A DNA stretch of 64,000 bases, taken from assembly GCA_003221515.1 (NCBI GenBank), contig QHSI01000103.1, forward strand, positions 1 to 64,000, given 5' to 3'. The notes under the pieces are model-generated. The model did no database searches, was not told the origin of the DNA, and saw only the letters and a program-made list of their open reading frames with translations. Made by a program: the position numbers and the translations under genes. How positions within the stretch are numbered: position 1 is the first letter of the stretch; each line of letters begins with the position of its first letter. Origin of the DNA: Candidatus Rokuibacteriota bacterium (GTDB lineage Bacteria > Methylomirabilota > Methylomirabilia > Rokubacteriales > CSP1-6). Positions 49,337 to 56,436 of the stretch are shown one piece after another.

Positions 49337-49558
49337 ATGCTGCGGGTCATCGTCGTGGTCGCGCGCGACCGTCCCGAGCTGCTCAGCTATTTCGAAACCG
49401 TCTTCGCCGGCATGCCCGACATCAAGGTGCTCCTGGACCGCCGCCTCGCGCCGCCGGGAGCGGATCCGGCCGCGCCGCCCGCGCCGGGACGTCGCGAACG
49501 GCGTGACGTCTACGACGAGCTCCAGCAGCGCGGCTTCGTGATGATCCGCCTGTGGTGA
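49337..49558 (+). CDS. Small protein paralogous to 48899..49165
   Basis: MLRVIVVVARDRPELLSYFETVFAGMPDIKVLLDRR...GRRERRDVYDELQQRGFVMIRLW. Confidence 0.6.
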   Translation: MLRVIVVVARDRPELLSYFETVFAGMPDIKVLLDRRLAPPGADPAAPPAPGRRERRDVYDELQQRGFVMIRLW

Positions 49559-49742: not shown

Positions 49743-51182
49743 GTGCACCTGTCGTGGAAGATCAGGCCGAATTCGTACTTCGATTCCATCGACCTCATGC
49801 GCGTCGCGGAGCAGACGCGACAGCTTGCGGGCGTGATCGAGGTCGCGGTCGTGATGGGAACGCCGACCGGCCGCGCGATGCTGGCCGAAGCGGCGATGTG
49901 GCCGGCGGAAGCGCCGGAGGGCACGCCCTCCGATCTGCTCGTCGCGGTGAGAGCGAGCGGCGAGGTGGTGGCCCGCCACGCTCTCGCTCGCGTAGACGAT
50001 CTGCTGAGCGCCGGCCGGGACGCGGGACCGGCGCGAGCGGCGCCAGCGCCGCGCACCACGGCGTCCGCCGCCCGCGGCGGCGCGGCGAACGTGGCGCTCG
50101 TCGCGGTGCCGGGCGACTACGCGGTCCTCGACGCCCATCAGGCGTTGTCGAGCGGTCTCCACGTGTTCCTTTTCAGCGACGGCGTATCGCTCGACGACGA
50201 GATCGCGCTGAAGCGCCGCGCGCGCGAGCGTGGCCTGCTGGTCATGGGCCCCGAGTGCGGCACCGCGATCATCAACGGTGTGGGCCTGGGCTTCGCGAAC
50301 CGCGTACGCCGCGGACCGATCGGGATCGTCGGCGCCTCCGGCACCGGCATCCAGGAGGTGACGAGCCTCGTCCACCGGCTCGGCGGCGGGGTCTCCCACG
50401 CGATCGGCACCGGAGGTCGCGATCTCCACGCCGCCGTCGGCGGCATCACCACGCTCCAGTCCCTCGCGCGCCTCGCCGCCGACGAGTCCACCCGCGCGCT
50501 GCTGATCGTGTCCAAGCCCGCGTCACCCGCCGTCGCCGACGTCGTGCTCAGGGCCGCGGTCGAGGCCAAGAAACCCGTGGTGGCCTGCCTGCTCGGCTAC
50601 GACGGACGGGTGCCGGGCGGCGTGCACGCGGTGACGACGCTGGAGGCGGCGGCGGCCACCGCGGTGAGCCTCGCCGGCGGGGCGGTCGTCGAGCTCGAGC
50701 GGCCCGCTGGGGTGACGAGGGGCGGCGCGCGCGGCGCGGTGCGCGGACTTTATGCGGGCGGCACGCTCTGCGACGAGGCGCGCCGCATCGTGGGCGGGGC
50801 CCCGCACGGCTTCGTGGACTTCGGCGCCGAGGAGTTCACGCGCGGGCGGCCGCACCCGATCATCGATCCGAGTCGCCGCAACACCGCGATCGTCGAGGCG
50901 GGGGATGATCCGACAGTCTCCGTGCTGCTGCTCGACCTGATCCTGGGCGACTGCGCGCATCCCGATCCAGCCGCCGCGGTCACGCCGGCGCTCGCGGAGG
51001 CCCGCGAGCGCGCGCGGCGCGGCGGCCGGACGCTGACCGTCGTCGCGCACGTCGTCGGGACCGACGACGACCCGCAGGGCCTCGGCCGGCAGGAGAAGAC
51101 GCTGCGCGACCTCGGCGCCCTCGTGTGCGCGAGCAACCGGCGGGCGGCCGAGACGGCGCGGGCGATCGCCGGAGGCGCCTGA
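49743..51182 (+). CDS. fdrA: FdrA family protein (acyl-CoA synthetase-like; oxamate carbamoyltransferase subunit homologue)
   Basis: GPECGTAIINGVGLGFANRVRRGPIGIVGASGTGIQEVTSLVHRLGGGVSHAIGTGGRDL, LYAGGTLCDEA, HPIIDPSRRN; GTG start; TATAAT at 49702. Confidence 0.88.
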   Translation: MHLSWKIRPNSYFDSIDLMRVAEQTRQLAGVIEVAVVMGTPTGRAMLAEAAMWPAEAPEGTPSDLLVAVRASGEVVARHALARVDDLLSAGRDAGPARAAPAPRTTASAARGGAANVALVAVPGDYAVLDAHQALSSGLHVFLFSDGVSLDDEIALKRRARERGLLVMGPECGTAIINGVGLGFANRVRRGPIGIVGASGTGIQEVTSLVHRLGGGVSHAIGTGGRDLHAAVGGITTLQSLARLAADESTRALLIVSKPASPAVADVVLRAAVEAKKPVVACLLGYDGRVPGGVHAVTTLEAAAATAVSLAGGAVVELERPAGVTRGGARGAVRGLYAGGTLCDEARRIVGGAPHGFVDFGAEEFTRGRPHPIIDPSRRNTAIVEAGDDPTVSVLLLDLILGDCAHPDPAAAVTPALAEARERARRGGRTLTVVAHVVGTDDDPQGLGRQEKTLRDLGALVCASNRRAAETARAIAGGA

Positions 51183-52591
51183 TGGCGCCCGAGCCCGATC
51201 TGCTCCGCGATCCGCTCGTGGCCGTGGTCGCCGGCCCCGAGCTCTTCGCGGCGGCGCTCGTCGCGCAAGGCGTTCCGGCGCGACGGGTGGATTGGCAGCC
51301 CGCGGCGCAGGCGGGCGCGCTCGCGTCGCTCTGGTGCGAGGCCGTGGACGCGGCGAACCGCGTGGCGCTCGATCGGGTGCTGGCGGCTCACCAGATCCTC
51401 GTCGACGTCCGTCCGGCGATGGAGGTCGTGCCCGGCATGACGCGCGACACCGTGCTGCACGCGGGCCCGCCGATCGCCTGGGAGCGCATGAGTGGTCCGA
51501 TGCGCGGCGCGATCGTCGGCGCCCTGATGTACGAGGGGCTCGCGCGCGACAACGACGACGCCGAGCGCCTCGCCGCGAGCGGCGGCGTCAGGTTCGACCC
51601 CTGTCACCACCACGCGGCCGTGGGCCCGATGGCCGGCGCCACGACCGCGTCGATGCCGGTGCTCGTGGTCGAGAACCGGTTCGCCGGCAACCGGGCCTAC
51701 TCGACGCTGAACGAAGGGCTGGGTAAGGTGCTCCGGTACGGCGCCAACTCTCCTGACGTCATCGAGCGCCTGCGCTGGTTCAGGGACGTCGTGGGGCCGG
51801 CGCTCGGTGAGGCGCTTCGCCGCTCGGGCGGCGTCGACCTGCGCGCGCTGATCGGGCAGGCCGTCCAGATGGGCGACGAGTGCCACAACCGGAACCGCGC
51901 GGCCTCCGCGCTCTTGATCAAGGCGCTGGCCCCCGAGATCGCCGCGCTCGAGCTCCCGGGCAAGGAGCGGCGCCGCATCCTCGCGTTCGCCGCCTCCAAC
52001 GAGCACCTGTTCCTGAACGTCGCGATGGCCGCGTGCAAGGCGGCGCTCGATCCCGCCCACGGTGTGGCGGGATCGACGCTCGTCACGACGATGGCGCGCA
52101 ACGGCACCGACTTCGGCATTCGCGTCAGCGGGCTCGGCGACCGCTGGTTCACGGCGCCCGCCGAGACGCCGCGCGGTCTCTATTTCCCCGGCTTCGCGGC
52201 CGGCGACGCGAACCCGGACATCGGTGACAGCGCGATCACCGAGACCGGCGGTCTCGGCGGCTTCGCCATGGGGGGCGCCCCGGCGATCGTCCAGTTCGTC
52301 GGCGGCACGCCGGCCGAGGCGCTCGAGTACACGCGCCGCATGTACGAGATCACGGCCGGCGAGAGCACGGCCTACCGGCTGCCCACGCTCGACTTCCGCG
52401 GAACGCCGACCGGGATCGACGTGCGCCTGGTCGTGCAGACGGGCATCCTGCCTCAGATCACGACCGGCATGGCGCACCGCGAGGCCGGCGTCGGCCAGGT
52501 CGGCGCGGGGATCGTCAACGCGCCGCGCGCCTGCTTCGAGCGCGCGCTCGAGGCGCTGGTGCAGGCCGGCATTGGACGATCCGCCGCCTGA
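51182..52591 (+). CDS. DUF1116 / YlbE family protein
   Basis: RFDPCHHHAAVGPMAGATTASMPVLVVENRFAGNRAYSTLNEGLGKVLRYG, IGQAVQMGDECHNRNRAAS, ARNGTDFGIRVSG; ATGA overlap with fdrA-like gene. Confidence 0.9.
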   Translation: MAPEPDLLRDPLVAVVAGPELFAAALVAQGVPARRVDWQPAAQAGALASLWCEAVDAANRVALDRVLAAHQILVDVRPAMEVVPGMTRDTVLHAGPPIAWERMSGPMRGAIVGALMYEGLARDNDDAERLAASGGVRFDPCHHHAAVGPMAGATTASMPVLVVENRFAGNRAYSTLNEGLGKVLRYGANSPDVIERLRWFRDVVGPALGEALRRSGGVDLRALIGQAVQMGDECHNRNRAASALLIKALAPEIAALELPGKERRRILAFAASNEHLFLNVAMAACKAALDPAHGVAGSTLVTTMARNGTDFGIRVSGLGDRWFTAPAETPRGLYFPGFAAGDANPDIGDSAITETGGLGGFAMGGAPAIVQFVGGTPAEALEYTRRMYEITAGESTAYRLPTLDFRGTPTGIDVRLVVQTGILPQITTGMAHREAGVGQVGAGIVNAPRACFERALEALVQAGIGRSAA

Positions 52592-54996
52592 TGAGCACAC
52601 GCGCGATCGGCGCGCGCATTCCGCGCAACGAGGATCCGCGGCTGCTGCAGGGCCTCGGGTGCTTCGTGGACGACGTGGACCCTCCGGGCATGCTCCACGC
52701 GGCGGCGCTGCGGAGCGGCCACGCCCACGCGCGGATCGTTCGGATCGACGCGACGGCCGCTCGCCGCGCGCCCGGCGTCCGCCTGGTGCTCACCGCCGCC
52801 GACCTGGGTGAGCGGAACCAGCCGTCGCCTCTGCTGATCCCGCATCCCACGCTGACTCACGCGCGCACGCAGCGGCCACTCGCGACCGACGAGGTCCGGT
52901 ACGTGGGCGAGCTCGTCGCATTCGTCGTCGCGACCGATCGCTACCTCGCCGAGGACGCGGCCGCGCTGATCGAGGTCGAGTACGAGCCGCTTCCGGTCGT
53001 GACCGACCTGGCGACCGCGCTCGCGTCCGGCGCGACGCGCGTGCACGCCGACGTCCCCGAGAACCGCGCCGCGCGGTTCCGGCAGGCGGTCGGTGACGCC
53101 GCCGGGGCGCTGGCGCGGGCGCCGCGCGTACGGCGCGAGCGGCTGGCGATCGAGCGCAGCTGCGGCAGCCCCATCGAGACGCGCGGCGTGGTGGCCGAGT
53201 GGGACGCGCGGCGACGGGTCCTGAGAGTCTGGGACTCGACGCAGGCGCCGCTGCCCATCAAGAACGGCCTGGCGCGGCTCTTCGGCCTTCCCGAGTTCAG
53301 CGTCGAAGTCGTGGCGCCGGACGTGGGCGGCGGCTTCGGCACGAAGATCATGCTCTTCTATCCGGAGGAGATCCTGGTCCCGCACGCGGCGATCACGCTC
53401 GGTCGGCCCGTGAAGTGGACGGAGGACCGGCGTGAGCACCTGCTGGCCGCCAACCAGGAGCGGGGCCAGATCCACGACGTCGAAGTGGGCTTCGACGAGA
53501 TGGGCAAGATCCTGGCGCTTCGCGACCGCTTCGTCCACGACGCCGGCGCCTACACGCCGTACGGCATCGTCGTGCCGATCATCACGTCGACGCAGTTACC
53601 GGGGCCATATCGGCTGCAGAATTACGCAGTCGAATTCGAAGTCGCCTACACGAACAAAGCCGTCGTGACCCCGTATCGCGGCGCCGGCCGGCCGCACGGC
53701 GTTTTCGTTATGGAGCGCATGATCGCGCTGATCGCGCGCGAGCTCGGGCTCGAGCCCTCGGAGGTGCGGCGGCGCAACTTCATCCAGCCCGACGAGTTTC
53801 CGTGGGACGTGGGGCTCACGTTCCAGGACGGCGGCCCCACCCGCTACGACAGCGGCGACTACCCGGCCGGTCTGGCGATGGCGCTCGAGATGGTCGGGGC
53901 CGGCGAGTTCCGTCGCCGCCAGGCCGAGGCGCGCCGCGCCGGTCGCTACCTCGGGCTCGGACTCGGCTGCTACGTCGAGGGCACCGGCATCGGTCCCTAC
54001 GAGGGCGCGCACGTCCGTATCGAACCGAGCGGCAAGGTGCTGGTGGCGACGGGCCTGACGACGCAGGGGCAGGGGCACGGCACGACGTTCGCCCAGATCG
54101 CCGCCGACGCGCTCGGCTGCGATCCGACGGACGTCGCGGTGGTCACCGGCGACACGACCAAGTTCAACTGGGGCGCCGGCACCTACGCCAGCCGCGGCCT
54201 GGTCACGAGCGGTAACGCGATCCATCGCGCCGCGCTGCAGGTGCGCGACAAGGCGCTGCGCCTGGCCGCGAGCCTGCTCGAAGTCTCGCCCGATGACCTC
54301 GAGCTGGCCGACGGCCGCGCGCGGGTCAGGGGCGCGCCCGGCAAGGAGCTAACGCTCGGCGCGCTGGCGACGGTCGCGAACCCGATCCGCTACGCGTACG
54401 GCAAGGAGGCGGCCGAGGCTGCGCTGCGGCTCGTGAAACCGCGCGAGGGGGCGGTGCTCCAGGAGGGCGAGGCGCCGGGGCTCGAGGCGCACGGGTACTA
54501 TGCGCCGCCCCACTCGACCTTCGCGAGCGGGTGCCACGCGGCGATCGTCGAGGTCGACGTCGAGACCGGGAACCTCGCGTTCCTCCGGTACGTCGTCCAC
54601 CACGACTGCGGCACGCTCGTGAACCCGATGATCGTCGAGGGCCAGATCCGCGGCGGCGTCGCGCAAGGCATCGGCGGCTCGTTCTACGAACGCATCGTCT
54701 ACGACGAGAGCGGGCAGCCGCTCACCACGACGTTCATGGACTTCCTGATCCCGACCGCGGTGGAGATTCCCGACATCACGATCGGCCACACCGAGACGCC
54801 CTCGCCGCTCAACGCGCTCGGCATCAAAGGCGTCGGCGAAGCCGGCGCCATCCCCGTTCCGGCGCTCGTCGCCGAGGCGATCGACGACGCGCTCGCACCT
54901 CTGGGTGTTCGCATTCGCGAGATGCCACTTTCTCCGAGCCGCTTGCGTGAGCTGATCGCCGCGGCGCGGGGTGGCGCGGGCGCCGGCTCGGGATGA
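52591..54996 (+). CDS. Xanthine dehydrogenase/CO dehydrogenase large-subunit family molybdenum hydroxylase
   Basis: PRNEDPRLLQGLGCFVDDVDPPGMLHAA, VVAPDVGGGFGTK, VTPYRGAGRPHGVFVMERM, TTQGQGHGTTFAQI, GIKGVGEAGAIPVPA; ATGA overlap with DUF1116 gene. Confidence 0.9.
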   Translation: MSTRAIGARIPRNEDPRLLQGLGCFVDDVDPPGMLHAAALRSGHAHARIVRIDATAARRAPGVRLVLTAADLGERNQPSPLLIPHPTLTHARTQRPLATDEVRYVGELVAFVVATDRYLAEDAAALIEVEYEPLPVVTDLATALASGATRVHADVPENRAARFRQAVGDAAGALARAPRVRRERLAIERSCGSPIETRGVVAEWDARRRVLRVWDSTQAPLPIKNGLARLFGLPEFSVEVVAPDVGGGFGTKIMLFYPEEILVPHAAITLGRPVKWTEDRREHLLAANQERGQIHDVEVGFDEMGKILALRDRFVHDAGAYTPYGIVVPIITSTQLPGPYRLQNYAVEFEVAYTNKAVVTPYRGAGRPHGVFVMERMIALIARELGLEPSEVRRRNFIQPDEFPWDVGLTFQDGGPTRYDSGDYPAGLAMALEMVGAGEFRRRQAEARRAGRYLGLGLGCYVEGTGIGPYEGAHVRIEPSGKVLVATGLTTQGQGHGTTFAQIAADALGCDPTDVAVVTGDTTKFNWGAGTYASRGLVTSGNAIHRAALQVRDKALRLAASLLEVSPDDLELADGRARVRGAPGKELTLGALATVANPIRYAYGKEAAEAALRLVKPREGAVLQEGEAPGLEAHGYYAPPHSTFASGCHAAIVEVDVETGNLAFLRYVVHHDCGTLVNPMIVEGQIRGGVAQGIGGSFYERIVYDESGQPLTTTFMDFLIPTAVEIPDITIGHTETPSPLNALGIKGVGEAGAIPVPALVAEAIDDALAPLGVRIREMPLSPSRLRELIAAARGGAGAGSG

Positions 54997-55142
54997 CGGG
55001 CGGGGTCGCGCGACCACGCGGCACGCGTCCGCTTGGCCCGTTGCGGCTGGGCTCCATCCGGGCACCGGGCGCCCGTTGCCACTTGGAGGGAACGGGTCTC
55101 GTCGACCCCGCCCGTCATCCCGAGCCGACGCCCGCGGCTCCC
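54969..55142. repeat. Long imperfect inverted repeat at 3' end of molybdenum hydroxylase gene
   Basis: Arms 54969-55008 and 55103-55142 pair at 37 of 40 positions with a perfect 24-bp core GGCTCGGGATGACGGGCGGGGTCG / CGACCCCGCCCGTCATCCCGAGCC. Confidence 0.85.
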
Positions 55143-55323
55143 GTCGCGGCGATCGGAGCGCCATGGCTTGGAGCAAGTCGATCACTCGACACGGTGATTC
55201 CTCGAAGCACATCGCGTGCTCGAAGCCGGTCGGTCGAGCGGGCGCGGCGATTGCTCGCGGCAAGCTGCATACGGCACAGGACGCGCGGATCACTCGACGC
55301 ATTCGGCATAGGAGGAGATAGAC

Positions 55324-56436
55324 ATGCATGCGCAGGCGTTCAAGGTGGGGATGCGGGCACCGGATGATGTGGTGGAGGCGGCGAAGTTGCTGGACCAGGG
55401 CGCGTTCAAGGCCGAGCACGTCGCGGCCATTCTCGGCAAGACCGAGGGCAACGGCGGCGTCAACGACTACACGCGCGCGCTGGCCACGCTCTCGTTCCAG
55501 CTGCTGCTGGCCGAGCGCTCCGGCCAGAAGGTCGCGGCGATCGCCAAGCGCGTGCCCATCATCTGGTCCGGCGGCACCGAGGGATTGATGAGCCCTCACG
55601 CCACGATCTTCACGCGTGAGCCCGACCGCGGCTCGCCCGCGGGCGGCAAGCGGCTGGCCATCGGCACCGCCTACACCCGCGACCTGCTGCCCGAGGAGTT
55701 CGGGACCGCCGTCCACGCGCGGGTCGCCGCCGACGGCGTGCGCGCGGCGATCAAGGATGCCGGCATCGACGCCACGGCCGATCTCCACTTCGTCCAGATC
55801 AAGACGGGCGCCCTGACCACCGAGCGCGTCAACGAGGCCCGGCGCCGCGGCAAGGGCGTCATCACGTCCGACACGTACAAGTCGATGGCGTACGGGCGCG
55901 CCGCGGCCGCGCTCGGCATCGGCGTCGCCTCCGGCGAGGTGGATGCGGCCAAGCTCGACGGCAACGTCATCGGTCAGGAGTTCTCGATCTTCTCGGAGAT
56001 CGCCTCGACCTCGTCGGGCGTGGAGCTGATGAACTGCGAGGTGATCGTGCTCGGCAACTCGCGCCAGTCCACCAGCGAGCTGGTCATGGCGCACGCCATC
56101 ATGAAGGACGCCATCGACGCCGGCGGCGTCCGCGAAGCGCTGCGCCGCGCCGGGCTCGCGGTCGACGGCGAGCTGGCGGAAGCCGATCGTGGCCGCCTGA
56201 TCAACGTGTTCGTCAAGTGCGAGCCCGACCCGTCGGGCGCGACGCGCGGACGGCGTCACGTGATGTTCGAGGACTCGGACATCAACTACACCCGCCACAT
56301 TCGCGGGGTGGTGAACGGCGTGGTCGCGTCGGTCACCGGCGACACGATGTGCTACGTGTCGGCGGGCGCCGAGCACCAGGGGCCGCCCAGCGGCGGTGTC
56401 GTCGCGGTTCTGGCGCGGGCTGCGGGTGGGCGCTGA
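55324..56436 (+). CDS. Ring-opening amidohydrolase (cyanuric acid amidohydrolase/barbiturase family)
   Basis: KTEGNGGVNDYTRALA, SGGTEGLMSPHATIF, STSSGVELMNCEVIVLGNS, RHVMFEDSDINYTRHIRGVVNGVVAS; GGAGGAGAT RBS. Confidence 0.92.
   Translation: MHAQAFKVGMRAPDDVVEAAKLLDQGAFKAEHVAAILGKTEGNGGVNDYTRALATLSFQLLLAERSGQKVAAIAKRVPIIWSGGTEGLMSPHATIFTREPDRGSPAGGKRLAIGTAYTRDLLPEEFGTAVHARVAADGVRAAIKDAGIDATADLHFVQIKTGALTTERVNEARRRGKGVITSDTYKSMAYGRAAAALGIGVASGEVDAAKLDGNVIGQEFSIFSEIASTSSGVELMNCEVIVLGNSRQSTSELVMAHAIMKDAIDAGGVREALRRAGLAVDGELAEADRGRLINVFVKCEPDPSGATRGRRHVMFEDSDINYTRHIRGVVNGVVASVTGDTMCYVSAGAEHQGPPSGGVVAVLARAAGGR

Follow-up and report, generated by a model that had tools for sequence, protein, structure and literature searches.

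A Linked Molybdenum Hydroxylase, AtzD-Family Ring Opener and AllF/AllG Pair in Rokubacteria: A Candidate Module of Oxidative Pyrimidine Catabolism

Introduction

What is broken down by four adjacent genes of a Candidatus Rokuibacteriota soil bacterium that encode an AllF/AllG pair, a molybdenum hydroxylase large subunit, and a ring-opening amidohydrolase? The genes occupy positions 49,743 to 56,436 of a 64,000-nucleotide stretch of contig QHSI01000103.1, which at its full length is called the window in the following. With some reserve, we favour the view that they form an oxidative pyrimidine catabolic module, in which uracil would be hydroxylated, the ring opened, and the carbamoyl group removed by AllF and AllG. 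Two parts of this view, each taken by itself, appear probable from comparison of sequences: oxidative breakdown of pyrimidines with a distinct barbiturase-like enzyme as the alternative ring opener, and the proposed uracil hydroxylase.

In the predicted pathway, the CoxL-type large subunit, with CoxM and CoxS encoded elsewhere, would hydroxylate uracil (and perhaps thymine) at C6, yielding barbiturate (or 5-methylbarbiturate). The AtzD-family enzyme, with a pocket unlike that of both known classes, would open barbiturate to ureidomalonate (or its 2-methyl analogue). AllF/AllG may then strip the carbamoyl group by analogy with oxalurate (ureidomalonate + phosphate -> malonamate + carbamoyl phosphate). 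All substrates named here are predictions, above all that of this last step.

The oxidative pyrimidine pathway of Rhodococcus consists of uracil/thymine dehydrogenase, barbiturase, and ureidomalonase. Ring hydroxylation followed by Toblerone-fold opening would be common to both routes, and relatives of the window genome have true-barbiturase-type genes beside the same CoxL. The window differs in that its ring opener falls in a separate clade and that AllF/AllG is present; we know of no ureidomalonase known by sequence for comparison. To our knowledge, no gene has been assigned to uracil/thymine dehydrogenase, and the linkage of a molybdenum enzyme gene with the barbiturase pathway is new. A literature search found neither a uracil dehydrogenase gene nor a report on pyrimidine pathways in Rokubacteria. 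The locus bears on three open questions: the identity of the uracil-oxidising enzyme, the fate of ureidomalonate, and the role of the yah cluster in E. coli and of its relatives in Firmicutes.

Gene Layout and Conservation of the Linkage

A first-pass annotation, made from the window alone, had described four same-strand genes, and gene calls and profile matches bore this out: all four are intact, uninterrupted, and on the + strand. An FdrA/AllF-like protein of 479 amino acids (49743..51182; NCBIfam NF004760, 435 bits) with a SucD-like fold and a CoA-ligase domain is followed by AllG (DUF1116; 469 amino acids, 51182..52591; PF06545, E 3.5e-98), the CoxL-type molybdenum hydroxylase large subunit (801 amino acids, 52591..54996; CODH group 5, 1067 bits), and the Toblerone-fold ring-opening amidohydrolase of the AtzD/barbiturase family (370 amino acids, 55324..56436; PF09663, 457 bits). 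The AllF-AllG and AllG-CoxL junctions read TGATG, with stop and start overlapping by one base, rather than ATGA as first described, and the spacing between CoxL and the AtzD-family gene is 327 bp instead of 330. A longer AllG reading frame from 51125 was dropped because gene calls place the start at 51182.

The four-gene linkage is real and conserved beyond chance. It was followed through 95 genomes of Methylomirabilota/Rokubacteria, with the CoxL clade defined at >=76% identity to the window CoxL, a clear gap separating it from the next best match at 54%. The CoxL clade was found in 28 of the 95 genomes, an AtzD-family gene also in 28, AllG in 49, and AllH in 37. CoxL clade and AtzD family occurred together in 26 genomes (Fisher p 9e-19, uncorrected for kinship), and they also coincided at the level of genera (13 shared out of 14 and 15, p 2e-6). 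AllG was present in 26 of the 28 CoxL-clade genomes, being common anyway. The order FdrA-AllG-CoxL-AtzD recurred in four genomes of the window's genus and was found rearranged in another genus, so that the linkage on which the first-pass annotation depended was found in relatives. Further orders were CoxL-FdrA-AllG-AtzD (L056 and L059), AllG-CoxL-AtzD (L040), CoxM-CoxS-CoxL-AtzD (L043 and L044), and FdrA-AllG-HyuA-HyuB-transporter-CoxL-AtzD on one strand in G087 (L042 with L123). Persistence of the linkage despite rearranged gene order speaks for a functional connection.

The Ring Opener: A Third Class Exchanged with the Barbiturase Type

Family members were aligned with solved enzymes, and the five specificity positions of Peat et al. 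(PMC3758960) and one neighbouring position were read off. At the five positions, barbiturase (group VI) is characterised by Asn195, His321, Lys325, Val345, and Ser/Ala346, and cyanuric acid hydrolases (groups I-III) by Arg195, Thr321, Arg325, Gly345, and Gly346 (PMC3758960). The window enzyme has the six-position signature R-S-T-R-A-G (R192, S231, T323, R327, A347, and G348) and does not match the barbiturase residues, having Arg, Thr, Arg, Ala, and Gly at the five positions. Within the phylum, cyanuric acid hydrolase types show R-A-T-R-G-G and 62-64% identity to the Moorella enzyme, and true-barbiturase types show N-S-H-K-V-D and 63-66% identity to the solved Rhodococcus barbiturase. The six positions of barbiturase itself read N-S-H-K-V-S.

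All complete sequences of the window type had R-S-T-R-A-G, five of them being from Binatota and related metagenome-assembled genomes. Position 345 is Ala in all of these, Gly in cyanuric acid hydrolases, and Val in barbiturase. Like the cyanuric acid hydrolases AtzD, TrzD, and the Moorella enzyme, the window enzyme belongs to this fold family and has the three Ser-Lys dyads (S82, S230, S346, K39, K160, and K298, invariant across its clade); unlike them, it has Ala for Gly345, Ser for Ala234, and Trp for Met before the first serine. The Trp before the first Ser, a Thr after the second Lys, and a Ser after the second Ser are common to the window type and barbiturase. In the tree, the window clade was separate (support 100/99), with the enzyme lying outside the barbiturase clade (100/100) and also apart from the cyanuric acid hydrolase group, whose own support is weak (79/79). 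The private A347 aligns with Gly348 of the Moorella cyanuric acid hydrolase, which in the solved structure lies 3.2 A from the alpha carbon (C5) of bound barbiturate, the atom that distinguishes barbiturate from cyanurate (PMC6557486). Judged by clade and signature, the ring opener of the window is a distinct third class, neither of the cyanuric acid hydrolase nor of the barbiturase type. The family named in the first-pass annotation, cyanuric acid amidohydrolase/barbiturase, was correct (PF09663), whereas the enzyme is not an ordinary member of it. A further AtzD-family class with the signature R-A-E-R-G-G stood apart in the tree and was found in two genomes (L035 and L036).

The distribution of the two types gives the best evidence for a barbiturase-like role. 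Each of the 26 genomes in which CoxL and the AtzD family coincide holds one type only, the barbiturase type in 10 and the window type in 16, and none holds both. All nine genomes of the window's genus have the FdrA-AllG-CoxL operon, which in one of them is divided between contigs. Four have the window type behind the operon; the other five lack it there, and the one AtzD-family gene that each of them carries lies at another site and is of the barbiturase type. Because of this strict either/or distribution, the window enzyme most likely substitutes for barbiturase and does its job or a near one. The swap thus suggests barbiturate hydrolysis by the window enzyme.

It seems unlikely that the enzyme is instead a variant cyanuric acid hydrolase, in which case AllF/AllG would decarbamoylate carboxybiuret or biuret and the molybdenum hydroxylase would make or feed a triazine-like ring or be a mere neighbour. 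Such a role would agree with R192, T323, R327, and G348, which match cyanuric acid hydrolases, with 52% identity to the Moorella enzyme versus 43% to barbiturase, and with AllF/AllG and carbamate kinase adjoining a Moorella-type cyanuric acid hydrolase. The NCBIfam label, cyanuric acid amidohydrolase, points the same way, but this model scored the window protein at 472.8 bits and the Rhodococcus barbiturase at 472.1 bits, so that its name is no evidence on the substrate. It was therefore rejected as a guide, and the automatic name cannot separate these enzymes. The genomic context also disagrees with a cyanuric acid hydrolase: AtzE/AtzF-type genes were matched in none of the window-type loci (BiuH was not among the probes), although they occur in two of the three cyanuric acid hydrolase loci of the same phylum, CoxL is absent from all three of these loci, and the exchange with the barbiturase type among CoxL-bearing genomes is strict.

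The CoxL-Type Hydroxylase and Its Probable Pyrimidine Context

The large subunit has MoCoBD domains (matches to PF02738, PF20256, and PF01315), and the GxGE active-site motif is present as GVGEAG. Its nearest solved structure is quinoline 2-oxidoreductase (1t3q), an N-heterocycle hydroxylase that hydroxylates the ring carbon adjoining the nitrogen.

The neighbours of the clade point to pyrimidines. Where CoxL occurs with the barbiturase type (L045, L046, and L050), an NCS1 nucleobase permease lies alongside, as does a cytosine deaminase (734 bits against a cut-off of 438), and where it occurs with the window type, nucleoside-type ABC transporters, a small deaminase, and C-N hydrolases were found. 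In G094, one run holds CoxM, CoxS, AllG, a cytosine-deaminase-like protein, the window-type enzyme, a uracil/xanthine permease, and AllH, with transporter genes interspersed. CoxM and CoxS adjoin the CoxL orthologue in three relatives (L043, L044, and L144). Actinomycete neighbourhoods were examined by gene calling followed by tblastn and Pfam. In Embleya, a carbamate kinase adjoins a barbiturase with 75% identity to the solved enzyme, and within 25 kb lie cytosine deaminase, an NCS1 permease, CoxL (55%), CoxM, and CoxS, with no AllF/AllG in this stretch. No such cluster was seen in Nonomuraea (L149).

The earlier proposal that the molybdenum hydroxylase and the ring opener act in one pathway is thus supported, as the same CoxL clade adjoins true-barbiturase-type genes, cytosine deaminase, and NCS1 permease. 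Comparison supports pyrimidines as the substrate class, and it makes the window CoxL a strong candidate for a uracil dehydrogenase.

Somewhat less likely still than a triazine is another N-heterocycle, such as hydantoin, a purine, or an imidazolone derivative, giving an oxalurate-like or other ureido acid on which AllF/AllG would act as in allantoin breakdown. AllF/AllG of the same subfamily does adjoin the hydantoinase HyuA/HyuB in L123, L124, and L126, HyuA/B recur near CoxL or barbiturase, and oxalurate is the substrate of E. coli AllFGH (PMC11326118). However, the occurrence of the same CoxL beside cytosine deaminase, NCS1 and uracil/xanthine permeases, and true barbiturase argues for pyrimidines, and Toblerone-fold enzymes of known activity open six-membered triketo rings (PMC3758960).

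Altogether, HyuA and/or HyuB (ATP-dependent hydantoinase/oxoprolinase) recurred beside CoxL, barbiturase, or FdrA-AllG in L046, L050, L123, L124, L126, L143, and L148, which suggests that the pathway includes one more step of ring opening or acyl hydrolysis. On another contig of the window genome (C22, L140 6799-13134), two CoxL-type genes with 40% and 43% identity to the window CoxL lie on either side of one CoxM-CoxS set, so that both large subunits may share it.

AllF/AllG and the Proposed Carbamoyl Step

As in E. coli AllFGH, which is accompanied by the carbamate kinase AllK, AllF (42% identity to the E. coli protein) and AllG (51%) are adjacent and in the same order, and the conserved motifs of both E. 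coli proteins are retained; the predicted substrate is an acylurea one carbon longer. In contrast to E. coli, the window genome has neither AllH nor carbamate kinase, no allantoin genes are near, and the pair is linked to a molybdenum hydroxylase and a ring opener. Absences were judged genome-wide in the 5.1-Mb draft (191 contigs, 95% complete). AllH (PF11392) was absent from the window genome and from all nine genomes of the genus, with the E. coli control detected, and a true carbamate kinase was absent from the window genome and missing in eight of the nine. The gap in DUF2877 and carbamate kinase described earlier for the window therefore extends to the whole genome. Deletion of allH in E. 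coli abolished most oxamate production (PMC11326118). Without AllH, either AllF/AllG works alone, or a different third subunit exists, or the reaction differs. The carbamoyl-phosphate step predicted for the window genome, which rests on analogy, would accordingly be incomplete.

A survey across phyla covered 80 loci gathered by the amidohydrolase alone, and AllG lay within 10 kb of the AtzD-family gene in 35 of them. AllF/AllG was beside this gene in all six window-type loci from Binatota/deltaproteobacterial metagenome-assembled genomes. AllG was also near cyanuric acid hydrolase types in Moorella, Tissierella, Clostridium, Acholeplasmataceae, Proteiniclasticum, and Enterococcus and near the TrzD-like gene found in Melaminivora. 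Most of these loci also have carbamate kinase, and AllH, a permease, and a deaminase are frequent further members. The AllG partners belong to several distinct clades. The neighbourhood survey suggested in the first-pass annotation thus revealed a partner that recurs in many phyla. No publication on an AtzD-AllFG linkage was found in the literature search, earlier gene-context remarks (Seffernick 2012) being possible. AllFGH adjoining biuret and triuret genes has been reported for comammox (PMC12625717).

The recurrence beside ring openers suggests that AllF/AllG removes the carbamoyl group from their acylurea products. Ureidomalonate is oxalurate extended by one CH2, so that its cleavage would be expected to give malonamate and carbamoyl phosphate. 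By this analogy, the chances that AllF/AllG is an acylurea carbamoyltransferase appear about even. Least likely among the alternatives is a pyrimidine pathway in which AllF/AllG without AllH activates the ring-opened acid or carbamoylates another acceptor and an amidase splits ureidomalonate. The missing AllH and carbamate kinase in the genus, the CoA-ligase domain of AllF, and C-N hydrolases adjoining the CoxL-AtzD pair in L038 and L042-L044 would fit it, but the retained E. coli motifs and the same pairing with AllH and carbamate kinase in other phyla fit carbamoyl phosphate. The idea that released urea feeds the urease/Urt system was not supported; these genes are present in the window at about 1-8.5 kb, but urea would not be a product of carbamoyl transfer, and nothing in the genome was seen to link the module with the urease locus.

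Several observations weigh against an oxidative pyrimidine module as a whole. Four of the five published specificity residues of the ring opener are of the cyanuric acid hydrolase type. Since AllF/AllG is also found with genuine cyanuric acid hydrolases (those of Moorella and the TrzD-like type), the pair by itself does not point to pyrimidines and was rejected as a marker for them. The co-occurrence of CoxL and AllG inside the family, taken alone, is only weakly above background (p 0.02), and the window genome is without AllH and carbamate kinase. No dedicated CoxM/CoxS could be assigned to the window CoxL within its genome, where all CoxM-bearing sets found and most of the 13 CoxS matches adjoin other CoxL genes. 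Outside the phylum, the Binatota/deltaproteobacterial genomes with window-type loci lack this CoxL clade, so that CoxL was rejected as an obligate partner of the ring opener.

A wider version of the pyrimidine proposal is tentative and rather doubtful. It would be a complete new oxidative route with a CoxL-type uracil/thymine hydroxylase, a ring opener of the third class, and a two-subunit AllF/AllG acting on ureidomalonate without AllH. Ala for Val might make space for 5-methylbarbiturate and thus allow ring opening in the thymine branch as well, and AllFG(H) might be a general second step after Toblerone-fold openers across phyla, with energy conserved as carbamoyl phosphate.

Related Clusters and Minor Features of the Locus

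AllF, AllG, and carbamate kinase accompany an AtzD-type gene in Firmicutes, Acholeplasmataceae, and others (L167-L169, L171, L173, L175-L178, L183, L187, L188, L190, L193, L194, and L199), and a permease, AllH, or a deaminase-like gene is often present as well. Such clusters are candidates for fermenting cyanurate, or a ring similar to it, with conservation of energy. The yahEFGIJ genes of E. coli K-12 (L116, 335280-342507; DUF2877, FdrA-like, DUF1116, carbamate kinase-like, and amidohydrolase) match these clusters minus the ring opener, with an AllFGH-like trio, a kinase, and a deaminase-like protein as in the AtzD-bearing Firmicutes clusters; unlike the window, they include neither a ring-opening amidohydrolase nor a molybdenum hydroxylase.

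Directly upstream of FdrA, a small open reading frame of 73 amino acids (49337..49558, + strand) is conserved at 76-80% in five genomes of the window's genus, and it matched no known family. The gap between CoxL and the AtzD-family gene holds an inverted repeat of 49 nt with arms at 54960-55008 and 55103-55151, the first of which overlaps the final CoxL codons. The arms are 88% complementary with a 24-nt perfect core, which occurs once in the genome, and folding was far better than in shuffled sequences. Inverted repeats in the same place were found in two relatives, with similar sequence in L058 and a different one in L051, so the structure is conserved.

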